A DNA stretch of 55,672 bases from Lachnospiraceae bacterium. GTDB lineage: Bacteria; Bacillota; Clostridia; Lachnospirales; Lachnospiraceae. Under the pieces are notes generated by a model. The model had not been told where the DNA came from, did no database searches, and worked only from the letters and a program-made list of their open reading frames with translations. The position numbers and the translations under genes are program-made. The DNA lies in contig JAGAMF010000003.1 of NCBI GenBank assembly GCA_017624855.1, forward strand, positions 1 to 55,672, given 5' to 3'. This document shows, piece after piece, positions 591 through 39,704 of this stretch (within the stretch, counting starts at the first letter, position 1; each line of letters opens with the position of its first letter).

Positions 591-628
591 AAAACGATTA
601 AATGAATAAATCATTTAGTCGTTTTTTT
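591..628 (+). terminator. Intrinsic terminator of the rRNA-tRNA unit
   Basis: Stem AAAACGATTAAATGA (591-605) pairs with TCATTTAGTCGTTTT (611-625) over a 5-nt loop and runs into seven T. It closes the rRNA/tRNA transcription unit. Confidence 0.85.
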
Positions 629-732
629 ATAATTAATTTTGGTTAATTAAGTCGTATAATTAAACTATGCGATTAAGCCATAATATGAAAAATATGTTAT
701 ATTAACAATAAGCCATAAAGGGAAGTAATATT

Positions 733-1350
733 ATGAAAAGAAAGTATGGGAATGAGGATGATTACGAAGCGATTCGTCCGCCAAGAAAACATAAGTATTA
801 TTTGCGAAACAGATGGATTTTTACGGTTGCAGCGATTCTGATTGTGGCGATTTTTACTGTTGTTAAGTTTTCTTATCAAAAGCAACCGTCAGAAGACGGC
901 ACGGTTTGCGCCACGGTGTTGTATGTGGTGGACGGTGATACTGTTGATGTAGATTTAAACGGTGTAAAAGAGCGTGTAAGACTGATTGGTGTGGACGCGC
1001 CGGAAAGTGTCAGTGCAGAGGAAAGTGAGAATTCCGTGTATGGTGAATTGGCCTCGGAATATACAAGGGAGCATTTAAAAGAAGGAACGGTTGTGTATTT
1101 AATGTTTGACAGCGAGAAAAGAGACCGATATGACCGCTTGTTGGCTTATGTTTGGTTAGAAGATGCATTGGATAATACGGATCACCTTTTTCAAAAGCAA
1201 CTGGTAGAAGATGGGTATGCCAGGGCGGTTTCATATGAACCGAATACATTATACAGGCATGTTTTCGAGGAATCCATGGGTGAAGCAATTGTGGAACGAA
1301 ATGGTCTGTGGGCTTATGAAGATTTTTATAAAATGTATTATGACGATTAA
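733..1350 (+). CDS. Membrane-anchored thermonuclease (SNase family)
   Basis: This 205-residue protein has a basic N-terminus, one membrane segment (about residues 30-46) that probably acts as an uncleaved anchor, and an extracytoplasmic staphylococcal-nuclease domain (about 58-200). The family cleaves DNA and RNA with Ca2+. The catalytic pattern is visible: the DGDT strand, an Arg-x-Leu-Ile-Gly-x-Asp-Ala-Pro-Glu segment carrying the first Arg, Asp and Glu, and a later Asp-Arg-Tyr-Asp-Arg with the second Arg. The ribosome site is weak (GGGAAG). Extended -10-like sequences (TATAAT at 655, TGTTATATT near 695) lie upstream. It stands alone between the tRNA terminator and the ftsH promoter; the substrate (environmental DNA or nutrients) is unknown. 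Confidence 0.85.
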   Translation: MKRKYGNEDDYEAIRPPRKHKYYLRNRWIFTVAAILIVAIFTVVKFSYQKQPSEDGTVCATVLYVVDGDTVDVDLNGVKERVRLIGVDAPESVSAEESENSVYGELASEYTREHLKEGTVVYLMFDSEKRDRYDRLLAYVWLEDALDNTDHLFQKQLVEDGYARAVSYEPNTLYRHVFEESMGEAIVERNGLWAYEDFYKMYYDD

Positions 1351-1444
1351 TTTGAACCGGCAAACAGCTGATACGATACTTGTTAAAAGTGTTAAAAATA
1401 CGGTTTAGTAAAGTTTGTATGCAGTTTTTTCACAATTAATAATA

Positions 1445-1473
1445 TTGATTTATCTTGTAGGGAACACTATAAT
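1445..1473 (+). promoter_or_regulatory. SigA-type promoter of ftsH
   Basis: TTGATT (1445-1450), 17-nt spacer, perfect TATAAT (1468-1473). The start codon follows 47 nt later, after a short A-rich leader. Confidence 0.7.
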
Positions 1474-1520
1474 GGATAATGATTTAATATACTATTTTAA
1501 TAAAAAGAAAGTGATGTAAA

Positions 1521-3881
1521 ATGGAAAATAATAATTACGAAAATAATAATAGAAATCGTATGCCGGAGGAACCTGACAACAGAAACTCAAATAAAAACAA
1601 CGGTAACGGCGGAAATAATAACAATAAGGGAAATGGGTCCGGGGGATTTTGGACTTTTCTTTTAATGGGAAGTATTTTCCTGTTTTTGATTTTTACCATG
1701 TTCCGTACGCTGATTCCTTCGGACATGAATGTAATTGAATACAGTGAATTCGTAAGAATGATTGAAAGCGGTGAAGTATCGGAAGTAGTAATCGGTAATG
1801 ACCGCATTACCATTGTGCCCGTAAAAGAAGAAGGTACAATCAATAATCCGTTTTTGCCGAAGGATGCAGATTATTTATATACCGGTAAAGTGGAAGAGGA
1901 TGAAACACTTACAGCCCGTTTATTGGAAAATAATATAAAAGTAAGCGGCGAAATTCCCGATAATTCCGGAGAAATCTGGTATTTTCTTCTTACTACCGTT
2001 TTGCCCATCGGTTTGATGGTGATTTTAACAATCATGTTAATCCGTAAAATATCCAAGAGCGGTGGCATGGGCGGCTTTATGAGCGTAGGCAAAAATAATG
2101 CCAAGGTATATGCTCAGAAAGAAACCGGCATCACTTTTAAGGATGTTGCAGGCGAGGATGAGGCCATTGAATCTTTGCAGGAAGTGGTTGATTTCCTCCA
2201 TAATCCCGACCGCTATGTTAAAATCGGTGCCCGCTTACCCAAGGGTGCTTTGTTGGTGGGACCTCCCGGTACAGGTAAAACATTGCTTGCCAAAGCTGTT
2301 GCGGGAGAGGCCAAAGTGCCGTTCTTCTCATTGACAGGTTCGGACTTTGTTGAATTGTATGTTGGTGTGGGTGCTTCCCGTGTAAGAGATTTGTTCCAGG
2401 AAGCAGAGAAAAATGCCCCTTGTATTATTTTTATCGATGAAATTGACGCAATCGGTCGCAGTCGTGATTCCAAGTACGGCGGCGGTAATGAAGAGCGTGA
2501 GCAGACATTGAATCAGTTACTTGCGGAAATGGATGGATTTGACGGCAAGAAGGGTATCATTATTCTTGCGGCAACAAACCGCCCTGAAATTTTGGATAAG
2601 GCGTTGCTTCGTCCCGGCCGTTTTGACCGTAGAATCATTGTTGAGAAGCCTGATTTAAAAGGTCGTGTGGAAATCCTTAAAGTACATGCCAAAGATGTGC
2701 TTATGGATGAAACCGTGGATTTGGAAGAAATCGCTCTTGCTACCAGCGGCGCGGTAGGTTCCGATCTTGCCAATATGATTAACGAAGCTGCCATTAACGC
2801 AGTTAAAAACAAAAGAGAATATGTAAGCCAGAAAGACCTTTTCAATGCGGTAGAAATCGTATTGGTGGGTAAGGAGAAAAAAGACCGTATTTTAAGCGAG
2901 CAGGAGCGTCGTATTGTATCTTATCATGAAGTTGGTCATGCGTTGGTAAGTGCATTACAGAAAAATTCCGAGCCCGTGCAGAAGATTACCATTGTGCCCA
3001 GAACCATGGGAGCTCTTGGCTATGTTATGCATGTCCCTGAGGAAGAGAAGTATTTGAATTCCGAGGCTGAATTAAAAGACATGCTGGTGGGCTTATTGGC
3101 CGGTCGCGCGGCAGAGGAGCTGGTATTTGATTCGGTAACCACCGGTGCTTCCAATGACATTGAAAAAGCCACATCCATTGCCCGTTCCATGGTTACTCAG
3201 TACGGTATGAGCGATAAATTCGGTCTCATTGGTTTGGAAACCGTAGAGAGCAGATATTTGGACGGTCGCGTGGTAATGAATTGCGCCGATGTAACTGCGG
3301 CTGCGGTTGATGAAGAAGTAATGCGTATTTTAAAAGAAAGCTACGCAGAAGCTACAAATCTTTTAAAAGACAATCGCGAAATTATGGATAAATTGGCTGA
3401 GTACCTTATTCAGAAGGAAACCATTACAGGCAAAGAATTTATGGAGATTTACTGTAAGGAAAAAGGAATCCCCGTGCCGGAGCCTAAGGCAGAATCTATG
3501 AGAAAAAATAAAAAGGTTCAGGAAGAGGCTGAGGCTCAGGAGGCGGAAACCGAAGAAAAGAGCGAAGCAATTGAAGGTGTAGAACCGGCAGAAGTTGCCA
3601 CCACAGAAGCGGAAGATGTAATCGAGGATACCGCTTCGCAGGCTGAAAGCGCGGAAGTCGAGGAGACAACCGAAGTCGAGACGACAGACGAAAACGATGG
3701 TGAAACGGTTGCCGAAGAGGAGTCTCATCAGGAAGAACCCAAGGGAGCATCTATGGAAGATGTGCAGGATGATGACGATTCTGAAGACGGAGATTCCGAT
3801 TCTGAGGACTCAACATCTGAAACATCGTCTTCAGCGGAGAATGATTTTGCGAAGGAACTGAAAAAGAGAATTTATAAATAA
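1521..3881 (+). CDS. ftsH: ATP-dependent zinc metalloprotease FtsH
   Basis: FtsH is a membrane-bound hexameric AAA+ protease that degrades unassembled membrane proteins and regulators. In order: an Asn/Gly-rich cytoplasmic leader (1-42), membrane segment 1 (about 43-62), an extracytoplasmic domain, membrane segment 2 (about 151-173), then the AAA+ module with Walker A GPPGTGKT (about 247-254), Walker B IIFIDEID (about 301) and the LRPGRFDR second region of homology, and the M41 domain with zinc site HEVGH (about 469-473). At 786 residues it is some 130 longer than usual because of a very acidic Glu/Asp/Ser/Thr-rich tail (about 650-786) ending in a basic cap. It lies close upstream of uvrC (34 nt to the preferred uvrC start), which may be cotranscribed. 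Confidence 0.98.
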
Positions 3882-3915
3882 CCAGGTGGGGCAAACGCCC
3901 CGTAGCGGAGTATGC

Positions 3916-5784
3916 ATGGAACATTTTGATGTAGAAGCCGAATTAAAAAAACTCCCGGGAAAACCGGGAGTGTATATCATGCATGATGCCAAAGATGCCA
4001 TCATTTATGTGGGTAAGGCCGTAAGTCTGAAAAACAGAGTGCGGTCTTATTTTCGTGCAAGCACAAAGAAAACCGCCAAGATACAAAAGATGGTATCGCT
4101 GATTGCCCGATTTGAGTACATAGTTACGGATTCGGAGCTGGAAGCTCTTGTGTTGGAGAATAACCTCATAAAAGAGCATTCTCCCAAATACAATACCATG
4201 CTGAAAGACGATAAAACCTATCCTTACATTAAGGTTACGGTTGCGGAAGCTTTTCCCCGCATTCTTTTTTCGCGGCAGATGAAGAAGGACAAAAGCAGAT
4301 ATTTTGGCCCTTATACCAGTGCGGCTGCGGTAAAAGATACCATAGAGCTTATGAATAAAATATATAAGCTTCGCACCTGCAATCGCAGCCTGCCTCAGGA
4401 AGAGGGCAAGGGGCGTCCTTGCTTAAACTATCACATAAAGCAGTGTACCGCGCCCTGTCAGGGCTATATCGACAAGGAAGCGTATCGTGAAAGCGTCAAT
4501 AAGGCCTTAGAGTTCCTAAACGGTAATTACGGTCCGGTCATAAAAGATTTGGAAGAAAAAATGTACGCGGCCTCCGAAGCCTTGGAGTTTGAGGAAGCCG
4601 GTAAGTATAAGGAACTTTTATACAGCGTAAAAAGCGTTGCCCAGAAGCAGAAGATTACGGAAAGCGATGGTGAAAATAAGGATTATATCGCCCTTGCACG
4701 AAATGAAAGGGATGTGATCATCCAGGTCTTTTTTGTGAGGGAAGGCAAATTGATCGGTCGCGAACACTTTTATATGAAGCAGGCAACGCAGGATACCGAC
4801 GGCGAGATTTTACAATCGTTTTTAAAACAGTATTACGCAGGAACTCCTTTTATTCCCAAGGAAATATTCCTGGCGGAAGCTATAGAAGAGCAGGAATTGT
4901 TGGAAGAATGGCTGGGGCGTAAAAGAGAAAACCGCGTATATATCCGCGTGCCTCAAAAGGGACAAAAAGAAAAGATGCTGGAACTTGCGAGACAAAATGC
5001 GGAACTGGTGTTAAGTCGCGATGCGGAAAAAATCAAGCGGGAAGAATTGCGTACCATCGGTGCGGTAAAAGAAATCGAAGCACTTTTACAATTAAGCAAT
5101 ATTCAAAGAATGGAAGCCTTTGATATTTCCAACATCAGCGGATTTGCCAATGTAGGTTCCATGGTAGTTTATGAAAAAGGAAAACCCAAGCGCAGCGACT
5201 ATCGTAAATTTAAGATAAAATCAGTGGCAGGGCCGGATGATTATGCCTGCATGAAAGAAGTGCTGACCCGCCGTTTTGTACATGGATTGGAAGAGCGGGA
5301 GAGTACGGATGCCGCATATGGAAGCTTTACCAGATTTCCGGATTTGCTTATGATGGACGGTGGTAAAGGACAGGTGAATATTGCGTTGCAGGTGTTGGAA
5401 GAGTTGAATCTGAACATTCCGGTGTGCGGCATGGTTAAGGATGATAACCATCGCACCAGAGGTTTGTATTATAATAATTGCGAAATTCCTATTGATACCC
5501 GGTCGGAAGGTTTTCATCTGATTACCCGTATTCAGGACGAAGCCCATCGTTTTGCTATTGAGTATCATCGTTCGTTGCGGTCTCAGGCGCAGGTACATTC
5601 CGTGCTGGATGAAATTCCCGGTGTGGGTCCCACCAGACGAAAGGCGCTGATGAAGAGTTTTTCTTCCATAGAGGATTTAAAAAAAGCAGATGCCGCAACC
5701 ATTGCGGAAAAAGCCGGAATGCCTTTGCATATCGCGGAAGGGATTGTGTCGTTTTTTGCAAACAAAGAAGAGAAAAAAGTGTAA
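3916..5784 (+). CDS. uvrC: Excinuclease ABC subunit UvrC
   Basis: UvrC makes both incisions around bulky DNA lesions after loading by UvrA and UvrB. Visible parts are the GIY-YIG nuclease (GVYIMHD ... IYVGKA, about 14-40), a UVR helix pair that binds UvrB (about 200-230), the RNase H-like second nuclease (FDISNISG region), and tandem helix-hairpin-helix motifs ([12 protein letters not shown]) near the C-terminus. A GTG at 3886 would add ten residues, but the ATG at 3916 has GGAG five bases upstream and gives the normal family N-terminus, so it is preferred (622 residues). uvrB and uvrA lie together about 12 kb downstream. Confidence 0.97.
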
Positions 5785-35504: not shown

Positions 35505-36809
35505 TTAAACATAACTGTTAAACATCATACCGCTGTACTGGCTCGTAATATATGCGGGTGCATAATTTTTGCCGGGATTCTTATATGCCACAATGGTTTT
35601 ATTTACATAGTCCATAGGGTTTAAAGAAATAGCGTTGGTTTTGTTTAACACGGCATTGGCAAAACGCTTGATTCCGTTTAAGGATTCTTTGGCACCGTTT
35701 TCATCAATGCCTGCTTTTAATACAGAGTCATCTACCTGTATAATACCGCTCTCGTCTAAGGAAATTCCAAGCGAACCCAATTCGTTGTTGTATAATCCTG
35801 AGATGCGTGACATTTCGCGGATTAACTGACTGCTCTTGGGCTGGGAATTCCGGTATTCCTGAGCTGCTTTTATGAAATCGTTGTATCCGCCGATAAAGCG
35901 ATGAATGTTTTCTGTTAAGGATTCGGTATCAGGTTTCAATCCTATGGTTACGGTTTCGCCCTGGGTGGCAGGAAGACCCTGCAAATTAAGTTCATATTTA
36001 CCTTCCACAGTAAAGTGGTTGGTATAAGAAACTCTTTTATCTCCGTTTAAGGTGAAGACCGCATTCTGAGGATGGCGGCTTACTTCATTTAAGCCTAAGT
36101 AATCTACAATGCCGGAATGTTTGCTGGTATTATCGTCGGTTATGTCAAATATGGTGGCGTGACCTAAGTCAATACCGGTAGCGGTAGACTCTAATGATAA
36201 TGCCGCATGTGAATTATCATATTCTTTTACCTCGGCCTTGATTCCAACATTGGCATTGTTAATCAACCGTGACAATTTATTCTGCAAATCAAAATTAGTA
36301 TCCCCGGGATTAATATTAAACTGAAACTCATAAGCGGTATTGTTAATGGATATATCAAAGGAGTAGGTGCCGGAGGGCATTGCCATGGCTTCCTTCCTAA
36401 GATAGTTTCCGGTGTTAATCTGTGACTGCGCCAGCTGTTCAACGCCGAGTTCCAAACTTTCGTTTTCATCCTGAACGGATATATCGCCGATGAATTTTGC
36501 ATCAACCACGGACGCATCACTGCTGTATGCAATCTTACGATTTAAAAGCTCTGTTTCATCGGAACCGCTTAATGAAGTAATAGTATTACGCAATTCACGC
36601 GCATTTTCTTTTATGCCTACGACATACTTCTGGGCGGCCTCGCTGGTATCCACAATGGACAGAGGGGATTCTTTATTCAATTTAACAATGGAATTATAAA
36701 CATCACGAAGATCGCTTTTCTTATGTGCATCATAGCGCGTAGCACTTTTGGGCGCATAAGTGGTCAGATAATGATTATAGATGTTGCTTAACGCGTACTG
36801 ATATGCCAT
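35505..36809 (-). CDS. FliD-like flagellar filament cap protein
   Basis: This 434-residue protein matches the general layout of FliD: an N-terminal helix region, a central beta-rich part (about 105-310, with YSFDISINNTAYEFQFNINPGDT), and a C-terminal helical FliD_C-like end (LGSLGISLDESGIIQVDD). Its N-terminus is not the usual GLASGLDTD type, so it may be a divergent cap or a related secreted appendage protein. It is one of only two minus-strand genes. GGAGGGGG lies next to the start codon. No fliS or flagellin gene is adjacent. Confidence 0.7.
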   Translation of the reverse strand: MAYQYALSNIYNHYLTTYAPKSATRYDAHKKSDLRDVYNSIVKLNKESPLSIVDTSEAAQKYVVGIKENARELRNTITSLSGSDETELLNRKIAYSSDASVVDAKFIGDISVQDENESLELGVEQLAQSQINTGNYLRKEAMAMPSGTYSFDISINNTAYEFQFNINPGDTNFDLQNKLSRLINNANVGIKAEVKEYDNSHAALSLESTATGIDLGHATIFDITDDNTSKHSGIVDYLGLNEVSRHPQNAVFTLNGDKRVSYTNHFTVEGKYELNLQGLPATQGETVTIGLKPDTESLTENIHRFIGGYNDFIKAAQEYRNSQPKSSQLIREMSRISGLYNNELGSLGISLDESGIIQVDDSVLKAGIDENGAKESLNGIKRFANAVLNKTNAISLNPMDYVNKTIVAYKNPGKNYAPAYITSQYSGMMFNSYV

Positions 36810-36945: not shown

Positions 36946-37115
36946 TACTATTTTTGTAAAAATGTTAAAAAAATATCAATCATTAATAAAAGGACGGGTG
37001 TGCGTGGTTTGGGAACGCCTCTGCAGGGTTCAACTACGAGTTGATTGGAAAACATTAAAAAACTTGCTAAGCTATGAGCACAAACAAAATGACGATGTAA
37101 AAAGGAGGAACGCAT

Positions 37116-38477
37116 ATGAATGAAAAAAATACGGTTAGCAAGAAGGTAACAAAGATGAAAGATCTCACATGCCTGGCAGACGGTCAGGTGTTTCCTGCAA
37201 GTTTCGAGGAAACGGGAATCAATTGTAACGAATTAATTATAGGCCCCACCGGAGCCGGTAAGACTTACTCCATATCTCTTCCCAGAATAGTTCATACTTA
37301 TAATAAGAGCCTTGTGGTGCCCATCGCAAAGAAGGCTCTTCGTGAAAAGTGCGGAAAACTCCTTGAAGAAAGAGGATACAGAGTAATCAACCTGGATTAT
37401 GCATACCCTGAAAATTGTGTTGTAGGGTATGACCCCATGGATTATATACACAGTGCGGCGGATGTAGTGCAGACGGCTAAAAACCTTATAGGGATGAATG
37501 AGAGTCAGTCCAGAACCGGTGGAATTGATCCGTATTGGAACGATAGCGCCGCCAGTGTATTGGCAGCAATCATTGCCCTTGTAAGGCTGAAGGCAGAGTA
37601 TTACGGAGAAAAGCCCAGTTTTGTAGAGGTTATTGAAATCTACAGAAGCATGAAAATTGAAGATAATGTAGGGCACTTTAAGTCGAATCTTGACCCCAAA
37701 TTCGACCGCTTGGAAAGTCTGTACCCCGGAAATCAGGCATCAGAGCTTTGGAAAACCATCAAAGGCCTTGCATCAAGAACTGCGAGCTGTATCATTTCCA
37801 TTGTAAATAACGCTTTGGATAAAATCTTTTCCGAGAACATCATCGAGATGATGAGAAAGAAGGAGCGTATCAACTTCGCCGATTTGGGAAAAGAAAAAAT
37901 TGCACTTTTCGTAACAACTTCGCCTGTGAATCTTACATTGCAGAACTTCGTCAACCTTATGTATGCCGATATGTTCCGTACGCTCTTCGAGACAGCGGAA
38001 ATGAACGAAGAAAGCTGCTTGGATGTGCCTGTGCACATTATATGTGACGACTTTGCCTGCGGCAGTAAAATCAACAAATTCGAAGATTACATCAGTATCT
38101 TCAGAGCGGCAGGTATCAGTGTAACGCTTCTTTTACAGAGCGAGTCACAGCTTAGCGGAATGTACGGACAGACCGCAGCAACCACCATTATCAACAACTG
38201 CGACACCTATGTGTACATGGGTGGCAGAGATGTGGAAACTTGCAAGAGTATCTCTTGCCGCGTAAACAAGCCCGTCAATGTCATCATGGATATGCCTTTG
38301 GAGCAGGTTATGGTGTTCCGCCGCGGCGCGGCACCGGTAATATCACGCCGCTACCAGATATTGGATGACCCCTTTTACATCCATATGGAAGAGCTTGCTA
38401 AGCCGCCCGTGAAAAAAACTCGCAAGAGTAACGCCAATAAGGCAAAAGAAACTGTCCCCCCTAAGGACAGAGAGTAA
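37116..38477 (+). CDS. Soluble VirD4/TraG-type coupling ATPase (paired with ClpP)
   Basis: This 453-residue RecA-type ATPase belongs to the VirD4/TraG/TraM coupling-protein family that pumps DNA or protein in conjugation. Walker A is GPTGAGKT (43-50). The late motifs match the family: a Walker B-type strand HIICDDFACG (Asp311, Asp312), then LLLQSESQLSGMYG and NNCDTYVYMG. Unlike typical VirD4 it has no N-terminal membrane segment, and the second acidic residue is Asp instead of Glu. No relaxase, VirB4 or other conjugation gene is near. The downstream neighbour, 67 nt after, is a ClpP-type peptidase with a strong ribosome site, so the two probably form an operon. Function is unknown; it may be a substrate-feeding motor for the peptidase. 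The start has AAGGAGG seven bases upstream. Confidence 0.85.
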   Translation: MNEKNTVSKKVTKMKDLTCLADGQVFPASFEETGINCNELIIGPTGAGKTYSISLPRIVHTYNKSLVVPIAKKALREKCGKLLEERGYRVINLDYAYPENCVVGYDPMDYIHSAADVVQTAKNLIGMNESQSRTGGIDPYWNDSAASVLAAIIALVRLKAEYYGEKPSFVEVIEIYRSMKIEDNVGHFKSNLDPKFDRLESLYPGNQASELWKTIKGLASRTASCIISIVNNALDKIFSENIIEMMRKKERINFADLGKEKIALFVTTSPVNLTLQNFVNLMYADMFRTLFETAEMNEESCLDVPVHIICDDFACGSKINKFEDYISIFRAAGISVTLLLQSESQLSGMYGQTAATTIINNCDTYVYMGGRDVETCKSISCRVNKPVNVIMDMPLEQVMVFRRGAAPVISRRYQILDDPFYIHMEELAKPPVKKTRKSNANKAKETVPPKDRE

Positions 38478-38498
38478 CCCGACAATAACATATTAACA

Positions 38499-38524
38499 CC
38501 CTTGAGGCCTACGGGTCTCAAGGG
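38499..38524 (+). promoter_or_regulatory. UNCG-capped hairpin before the ClpP gene
   Basis: CCCTTGAGGCC pairs with GGTCTCAAGGG (one G-U) with the loop TACG closed by C-G, an exceptionally stable UNCG tetraloop. There is no T-run, so it is not a normal terminator. It ends 7 nt before the AAGGAGG of the next gene, where it could protect the mRNA or tune translation. Confidence 0.55.
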
Positions 38525-38544
38525 CTTATAAAAGGAGGTACAAT

Positions 38545-39183
38545 ATGAATTTTTATAATAACGAAACTATGAACGACAGCACAGTTACACATGTATCCCG
38601 TTGGTCGCCCACCATTGAAGTGGAATCTTACAACGGCGTGAGAGAAATCTCCCTTATGACCAAGCATTTCGGGAACCGCAAGCTTTTCCTTAACGGCGAA
38701 GTGACAGACGAAATGGCAAACAGCTTTGTGTCAGAGCTTCTTTACCTTAGCCAGAGTAACGAGCCTATCGATATCTACATCAACAGCCCCGGCGGTTCGG
38801 TAAATGCCGGCCTTGTAATCTATGATGTGATTCAGGCCTGCGAAGGTAAATTACCTATAAATATGTACTGCACCGGTATGGCGGCTTCCATGGGGGCGGT
38901 GCTTCTTGCAGGCGGCCAGAAGGGAAGGCGCTACATTTTACCTCATAGCAAGGTCATGATTCATGAACCCTTGATTTCCAGAGGCATGGGTGGCTCGGCT
39001 ACCACCATTAAGAAGACGGCGGAATCCATTTTGGAAACCAAGGCCATTACCAATGGTATTCTTGCAAAACATACGGGTAAAACCGTGGAAGAGATTGACG
39101 AAGCTACGGCTTTTGACAACTACATGAATGCCGAAGAAGCCATTGCTTTCGGTCTCTGTGATGAAATTAAGAATATCTTTTAA
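38545..39183 (+). CDS. ClpP-family serine peptidase (non-canonical partner of VirD4-like ATPase)
   Basis: The 212-residue protein is a ClpP-type peptidase with a complete triad: Ser115 in GMAASMGA, His140 in MIHEPL, and Asp191 in AFDNYMN. INSPGGSVNAG, the oxyanion strand, is also present. Standard ClpP works with ClpX, ClpA or ClpC; here no Clp ATPase is adjacent, and the gene is behind a VirD4-like ATPase. The N-terminus (about 30 residues, to SLMTKH) differs from ordinary ClpP, in which this end forms the axial gate. It is therefore probably a paralogue dedicated to its neighbour, while the housekeeping ClpP lies outside the window; it could still be the general ClpP. A strong terminator follows. 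Confidence 0.85.
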   Translation: MNFYNNETMNDSTVTHVSRWSPTIEVESYNGVREISLMTKHFGNRKLFLNGEVTDEMANSFVSELLYLSQSNEPIDIYINSPGGSVNAGLVIYDVIQACEGKLPINMYCTGMAASMGAVLLAGGQKGRRYILPHSKVMIHEPLISRGMGGSATTIKKTAESILETKAITNGILAKHTGKTVEEIDEATAFDNYMNAEEAIAFGLCDEIKNIF

Positions 39184-39193
39184 CTAAGCCTAA

Positions 39194-39224
39194 AAGGCTC
39201 CCTACTATGTGGGGAGTCTTTTTT
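39194..39224 (+). terminator. Intrinsic terminator after the ClpP-like gene
   Basis: AAGGCTCCC (39194-39202) pairs with GGGAGTCTT (one G-U) over nine bases, followed by six T. It closes the two-gene unit. Confidence 0.85.
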
Positions 39225-39371
39225 ATGTGGAAAATTGTAGAATTTTCAACTTTTCGGTTCTTTTTGTTTTCGCATTTGTTGACTTAAGGCATTTTGTATC
39301 AAAATTTAATGAAAAAAAAGGTGATTTTCTTTTTGGTAATATACAATAGCAAAACGGTAAAAGGGTTTGTT

Positions 39372-39636
39372 CCGACTAAAACGAAGAAAAGCATAAAAAG
39401 TCGGACTGCAAACGAAAAGAATGCCCGACTAAAACGAGAAAATATGTAAAAAGTCGGACTGCGAACGAAAAGAGTGCCCGACTAAAATGAAGAAAAGCAT
39501 AAAAAGTCGGACTGTGGACGAGAAGAGTGCCCGACTAAAGTGAAGAAAAACATAAAAAGTCGGACTGCAAACGAGAAGAGTGCCCGACTAAAACGAAGAA
39601 GAGCATAAAAAGTCGGACCGCGGACACATAGAATGC
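39372..39636 (+). repeat. Five-copy 53-bp tandem repeat with alternating hairpins
   Basis: The unit starts CCGACTAAAA and repeats at 39372, 39425, 39478, 39531 and 39584, exactly 53 bases apart; the last copy decays at its end. Each unit contains CCGACT and AGTCGG, which are reverse complements. Each AGTCGG can pair with the CCGACT before it (A-rich loop of about 20 bases) or the CCGACT of the next unit (loop with GCA/TGC), so the array can form two alternating hairpin ladders. The part between the pairs is also conserved, unlike CRISPR spacers. The surrounding 39225-39704 has no gene. Confidence 0.9.
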
Positions 39637-39704
39637 GTGACATAGATGGGAAACAGTGTTTTTCTATCCAATGTGCATGTAAAATAATTTCCTCAAAATA
39701 CTTC

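Follow-up and report, generated by a model that had tools for sequence, protein, structure and literature searches.

A soluble VirD4-like ATPase encoded beside a divergent ClpP peptidase in Clostridia: candidate parts of a compartmental protease

Results and discussion

A two-gene unit in a Lachnospiraceae genome

The stretch of 55,672 nt analysed here, hereafter the window (Lachnospiraceae bacterium, assembly GCA_017624855.1, contig JAGAMF010000003.1), encodes a two-gene unit consisting of a soluble ATPase of the VirD4/TraG type and, after a spacing of 67 nt, a peptidase of the ClpP family (Table 1). Comparison with related loci revealed that the pairing of the two genes is not by chance. An original prediction, made from the letters of the window, had described an anchorless VirD4-family protein ahead of a triad-bearing ClpP, with a terminator closing the pair and without conjugation genes or a Clp ATPase nearby. 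Coordinates, Pfam matches and alignment agreed with this description, and behind the peptidase gene lay a hairpin with a trailing stretch of T residues, although a consensus terminator scan did not have this hairpin among its output. A second hairpin directly ahead of the ribosome-binding site of the peptidase gene could tune clpP expression. The assembly of the window comprised 1.95 Mb in 14 contigs at a completeness of 74.5 %; its nearest named relatives were metagenome assemblies of Lachnospiraceae.

Table 1. Features of the ATPase-ClpP unit, in positions of the window
Feature	Position	Strand	Evidence
Ribosome-binding site GGAGG of the ATPase gene	37104..37108	+	sequence
Soluble VirD4/TraG-type ATPase, 453 amino acids, without membrane anchor	37116..38477	+	open reading frame, Pfam, NCBIfam, AlphaFold model
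Walker A, GPTGAGKT, residues 43-50	37242..37265	+	sequence; Lys49 in 94 of 94 relatives
Walker B, DDF, residues 311-313	38046..38054	+	sequence alignment; Glu of coupling proteins replaced by Asp
Intergenic hairpin, 11-bp stem, UACG loop	38499..38524	+	z -3.9
Ribosome-binding site GGAGG of the clpP gene	38534..38538	+	sequence
Partner ClpP peptidase, 212 amino acids, Ser115/His140/Asp191	38545..39183	+	PF00574 match, alignment to canonical ClpPs
Terminator-like hairpin with T run	39192..39222	+	z -4.1

Linkage of the two genes in relatives

The Walker B motif was used to sort the ATPases. Asp instead of Glu was present in the ATPase of the window and in all 94 members of its class, which is defined by this residue; Glu was present in all 28 coupling proteins compared, a set from which low-scoring proteins had been left out. 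The two groups are called DDF and DEF proteins below. Among 81 related loci from genome and viral collections, 78 had a ClpP gene on the same strand; the distance was at most 1.4 kb in 77 of these and 3.2 kb in the remaining one. Two of the three loci lacking ClpP, L051 and L053, ended inside the ATPase gene at a contig end, the third, L050, carried an orphan ATPase gene in its contig. Seventy-nine genome loci (best 80 of 273) had been found with search patterns that contained DDF, hence this motif was enriched among them by design.

Searches with hidden Markov models (HMMs) were not bound to such patterns. The best four to six candidates per genome were scored and at most 30 loci retained per search, therefore the genome counts derived from them are lower bounds. 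In 299 genomes of the family sample, 30 loci were obtained, and ClpP was present at 19 of 19 DDF loci (one of these ClpPs partial) versus none of 11 DEF loci. In the class sample, ClpP was present at all five DDF loci and at none of the 25 DEF loci, some of which repeated earlier loci. From the phylum sample came five DDF loci with ClpP, 23 further loci without, and locus L213, a second pair of the window's genome whose ClpP gene falls outside that short locus. On its contig, C13, the ClpP gene (463-1050) and the ATPase gene (3930-5192) are separated by about 2.9 kb with other open reading frames between. Thirteen duplicate loci were dropped before counting.

After clustering at 90 % identity, a ClpP gene on the same strand within 4 kb accompanied 96 of 98 DDF clusters versus none of 34 DEF clusters. 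The linkage that the original prediction had proposed as its check was thus near-complete in relatives. Rows near a ClpP gene that were not DDF comprised only a motif-less decayed unit (L007 and L040, excluded from the DEF class) and a soluble DEF protein of 694 amino acids beside a DDF protein in L245. The latter locus (594-5567) encodes two soluble VirD4-like ATPases, one DDF protein of 422 and the DEF protein of 694 amino acids with the Walker A motif GATGSKKT, together with a 250-residue protein and ClpP. Fusions of ATPase and ClpP genes were not present in the reading frames of 123 loci (L034-L156).

Joint descent

For the comparison of both genes 94 pairs were used; L121 and L152, with partial ClpPs, were left out. 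Gene order was variable, the ClpP gene preceding in 77 pairs and the ATPase gene in 17, and parsimony required at least 14 order changes on either gene tree. Unless the two proteins function jointly, it is difficult to see why the linkage should have survived this much reshuffling. The trees of ATPase and ClpP were congruent: the Mantel correlation was 0.776, a value reached in none of 2000 permutations, 30 of 91 splits were common to both trees compared to a mean of 0.2 in shuffles, and in 44 of 94 pairs both genes had the identical nearest neighbour. The DDF proteins formed one clade apart from the DEF coupling proteins, with a FastTree support of 98 for all 132 sequences and an IQ-TREE support of 100/99 for a sample of 72, from which L024, L031, L032 and L033 were omitted.

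On the ClpP side, the canonical ClpPs of the hosts formed, together with two extra copies, one branch (support 100), and all partner ClpPs fell outside. With TepA as outgroup, which sits on a very long branch, the partner ClpPs did not group into a single clade (two changes), so that a single origin is not established; the root is uncertain.

Covariation between the two proteins over all 94 pairs had a top z of 11.4, compared to values up to 8.4 in five shuffles, and ClpP residues 39, 27 and 108 recurred. This signal was read as shared ancestry, because scores within clades were close to shuffle level.

The ATPase and its relation to conjugation

The ATPase of the window matched the Pfam families T4SS-DNA_transf (4.6e-36) and TraG-D_C. 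To the NCBIfam equivalog model for the VirD4 protein CD1115 it scored 233 bits, below the cut-off of 250 bits. The same model was matched at 1e-10 by all 94 members of the class, the best of which reached 9.4e-106 and probably passes the cut-off. A 19-residue stretch of mean hydropathy of at least 1.6 ahead of Walker A, as expected of a membrane anchor, occurred in none of 93 DDF versus 25 of 31 DEF proteins. The unit's ATPases thus differ from the VirD4/TraG proteins of the CD1115 type, from TrwB and from Cag-beta in lacking an anchor, in the Walker B Asp and in forming a clade of their own. In plasmid and phage collections, every match of the ATPase was below 60 % identity, at most about 31 % among the matches listed (1008 plasmid and eight phage records lie beyond these). 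The annotated plasmid matches listed were VirD4-like or type IV secretion system coupling proteins, the listed phage matches unannotated or hypothetical.

This family membership would suit a remnant of or an accessory to conjugation, in which the ATPase would continue to work for a type IV secretion channel, ClpP having no more than a clean-up role. A CD1110-type VirB4 was searched for in seven unit-bearing genomes: the match was strong in G182 and weak in G341, which lends some support to a conjugative role. In the other five no match was obtained, namely in the window's own incomplete genome, G162 and G266 (both 99 % complete), G091 (96 %) and G077. Type IV secretion genes were absent from the ten scanned neighbours of the pair, the genome-wide search being directed at CD1110-type VirB4. 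Among the 25 Pfam families listed of 86 on the flanks (148 of 228 flanking proteins scanned) no conjugation family occurred. The original prediction had considered that the ATPase might belong to a complete integrated conjugative element; in the window the unit does not lie within such an element, and where examined the unit lies outside conjugation elements and is not tied to a secretion system. Together with the missing anchor, the absence of VirB4 from five of seven genomes, three of them at least 96 % complete, and the lack of ClpP at all 34 coupling-protein clusters, this largely refutes a remnant of conjugation, to which we give next to no credence.

The AlphaFold model of the ATPase (predicted local distance difference test score 92.7) has the VirD4 core fold with the nucleotide-binding and all-alpha domains. 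Its best fold matches were Cag-beta and TrwB, tied and aligned end to end. TrwB we take to be a DNA-transfer protein and Cag-beta a protein-transfer ATPase. A DNA-tracking protease, in which the ring tracks along DNA in the manner of FtsK or HerA, handing DNA-bound proteins to ClpP, was given more weight for this tie, and the fold is common to DNA translocases. The order of a TepA-like gene and an FtsK/SpoIIIE gene in the window's genome, described next, would also suit it. The equally good match of the protein-transfer ATPase speaks against such a protease, which we regard as rather improbable.

In the window's genome, the gene of a TepA-like ClpP relative (G000:C2:181583-182062) lies directly before a gene assigned by Pfam to FtsK/SpoIIIE (locus L035, 9451-13085). 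It is a second, unrelated pair of neighbours with a ClpP fold and an FtsK-HerA-type motor in this genome. The likeness to the unit is the juxtaposition of a ClpP-superfamily protein and an FtsK-type motor; unlike the unit, TepA is a distant relative of ClpP (69 bits to PF00574) and the neighbour a membrane-anchored protein, which we take to be a DNA translocase.

Following the VirD4 proteins, many of the fold neighbours among the matches listed were complexes of HerA-SIR2 and HerA-DUF4297, some titled antiphage. These systems resemble the unit in combining an FtsK-HerA-type motor with an effector enzyme. By analogy, the VirD4-like ring might be the sensor or scaffold of a conflict system, with ClpP as a triggered effector that digests host or phage proteins. 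Such a HerA-like system with a ClpP effector is the main rival to a protease machine, though we hold it unlikely. Models of PADLOC (2023 database) did not match any of the 94 partner ClpPs at 0.001 and gave weak matches only to the window's ATPase (mad8, 1.3e-4; DinG, 0.03), which counts somewhat against a conflict system.

The partner ClpP

The ClpP of the window matched PF00574 at 7.5e-55, and its Ser115, His140 and Asp191 coincided with the catalytic triad when aligned to canonical ClpPs from the host genomes. These references were taken from 14 unit-bearing genomes picked for a completeness of at least 92 %. Among the 94 partner ClpPs, Ser and His of the triad were present in all and Asp in 88, and most core glycines were kept. 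In contrast, four residues that all 14 canonical ClpPs share were mostly lacking: Glu15 (0 of 94), Arg16 (13 of 94), Gln132 (1 of 94) and Arg171 (6 of 94). Tyr83, present in 12 of 14 canonical ClpPs, was absent from all partner ClpPs. The ClpP of the window has Val, Arg and Phe at the positions of Glu15, Arg16 and Arg171, hence one of three was kept. We assigned Glu15 and Arg16 to the gate, Arg171 to the sensor and Tyr63, Tyr83 and Leu115 to the pocket by our own mapping. In Escherichia coli ClpP, Glu14 and Arg15, which correspond to Glu15 and Arg16 in the reference numbering, staple neighbouring gate loops (PMC12383707). For the oligomerization sensor, PMC6773864 describes an Asp(Glu)/Arg pair, and it places the docking of the Clp ATPases at hydrophobic pockets.

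All 14 genomes have their canonical clpP immediately next to clpX, which makes the partner ClpP an extra copy in them. It had been considered that the partner might be the only ClpP of its genome and work with ClpX; the separate clpP of these genomes tells otherwise. In the window's own incomplete genome, two partner ClpPs and the TepA-like protein were present and a canonical clpP was not seen; beside the unit in the window no Clp ATPase is encoded. The two genes could also be unrelated neighbours, joined by chance or shared expression, with the ClpP working together with the host's ClpX or ClpC. An ordinary ClpP family with an intact triad and the retention of some pocket positions would be expected then. 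The linkage through at least 14 order flips, the congruent trees and the divergence at sites invariant in canonical ClpPs contradict it, and we consider it very improbable.

A candidate protease with a VirD4-like motor

What the computation gave is the linkage, the joint descent, the kept catalytic residues and a unit that stands apart from ClpXP and, where examined, from conjugation; the threading of protein into ClpP by a VirD4-like ring is the most economical reading. We consider it probable, with reserve, that ATPase and ClpP act as a single ATP-dependent compartmental protease, the VirD4-like ring feeding its own ClpP barrel. A hexamer of the soluble ATPase would replace the Clp unfoldase, dock on the apical face of this dedicated barrel and draw unfolded protein inside; the range of substrates is probably narrow. 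Accessory proteins, small and fast-evolving, whose genes lie next to the pair may help to select substrates in some lineages. That the unit stands for a new class of compartmental proteases, with a VirD4-class FtsK-HerA motor from conjugation in place of the AAA+ unfoldase on a dedicated ClpP and with clade-specific adaptors, we judge slightly better than an even chance.

Several observations weigh against a protease of this kind. The partner ClpPs have changed at many sites invariant in canonical ClpPs besides gate and sensor, and some pocket positions are largely kept, Tyr63 as Tyr in 58 or Phe in 18 and Leu115 in 87 of 94. The residue losses therefore fit a new partner and do not prove one; the loss of the sensor Arg could also mean an altered assembly of ClpP. 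On the side of the ATPase, the consistent exchange of Glu for Asp in Walker B could result in a slow or altered activity, and an IGF-like docking loop was not noticed, a systematic search not having been made. The tie of TrwB with Cag-beta leaves protein or DNA as the translocated molecule undecided by the fold. Covariation within clades was about at shuffle level, with 7.9 versus up to 7.4 in the clade of 58 and 7.5 versus up to 7.6 in the clade of 34. Finally, the orphan ATPase gene of L050 lies in a locus of 17 kb without ClpP; the same genome has another unit, made up of a DDF ATPase, a soluble DEF ATPase of 694 amino acids and ClpP.

The unit resembles ClpXP, ClpAP and ClpCP in its triad-bearing serine peptidase of the ClpP family and in the P-loop motor gene beside it, as clpX lies beside canonical clpP. 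It differs from them in the class of the motor, VirD4 (FtsK-HerA) instead of an AAA+ Clp ATPase, in the gate-staple and sensor residues missing from most of its ClpPs, and in that the 14 hosts checked also keep clpP-clpX. To our knowledge, only AAA+ rings are known to feed ClpP, HslV or the proteasome at the expense of ATP, and we know of no other compartmental protease with a non-AAA+ ATPase as unfoldase, thus the unit would be the first. A VirD4-ClpP unit was not described in the literature searched, although most subscription journals lay outside it and an earlier mention is possible; neither was it described in passages of PMC12419801, PMC7824862, PMC6773864 and PMC12383707. If the proposed protease exists, a DNA or protein pump of the FtsK-HerA superfamily would be re-usable as a protein unfoldase, the extra ClpPs of these gut and rumen Clostridia would be explained, and a soluble VirD4-like motor would be at hand that is easier to study than the membrane-bound coupling proteins. 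The unit is directly testable, since it consists of two genes only and is present in genomes not marked as metagenome-derived (e.g., L059 of Lachnospiraceae bacterium AB2028, L068 and L084).

Distribution, insertion site and neighbouring genes

The unit was counted in 19 of 299 genomes for the family sample, 5 of 391 for the class sample and 5 of 398 for the phylum sample; all three counts are lower bounds and include the window's genome. Named hosts were mainly Lachnospiraceae, Oscillospiraceae and other Clostridia, some were labelled Veillonellaceae, Schwartzia or Solobacterium, and one short contig with the unit was labelled Bacteroidales. Two IMG/VR contigs (L125, L126) also carried it. 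At the site of the window, the unit is present in G006, absent from G027 and decayed in G001, which characterizes it as an accessory block. In G027, a genome of the same genus with 97 % completeness, positions 36979-39695 of the window correspond to a mere 270 bp or so, flanked as in the window by the FliD-like and PadR genes; in G001, positions 37577-38711 have no counterpart and parts of both genes are gone.

A universal third gene was not found across the units. Accessory family 1 had 36 matches, all on the strand of the unit, at 32 of 93 representative loci; they lay upstream of the pair (18), between its genes (10) or downstream (8). This family evolves fast and has an N-terminus similar to 'SLxERLxR' (e.g., L079 6634-7011 and L112 10173-11276). 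None of 1394 control frames contained it, the control being small and most of its loci only about 4 kb long. Accessory family 2 occurred at eight representative loci related to that of the window. Both families were missing from the reading frames up to about 1.5 kb away from the window's pair, and Pfam gave no match above cut-off for the ten members tried, seven from family 1 and three from family 2. A role as adaptors is a guess.

The patchy occurrence, the absence or decay in close relatives at the window's site and the fast-evolving accessory proteins are what a conflict system, as discussed above for the HerA complexes, would lead one to expect. Against it, PADLOC matches on the flanks were scattered, with none in more than three of 148 proteins and without a control, and the unit of the window sits among core genes. 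The ten neighbours scanned were CdaA, a PGM/PMM enzyme (glmM), HPr, a FliD-like protein, PadR, HAAS, DUF4097, GNAT, a helix-turn-helix gene and one protein without match. Farther from the pair lie nusG, genes of ribosomal proteins and rpoB; the rest of the window, judged from its open reading frames, is core chromosome.

In locus L037 (3019-11893), the unit sits among an FHA gene, two protein kinase genes and an Hsp70 gene, a setting which suggests that the unit of this lineage is connected with chaperones or signalling. The FliD-like protein of the window (35505-36809), with a partial match to FliD_C only, adjoins HPr and borders the variable site.
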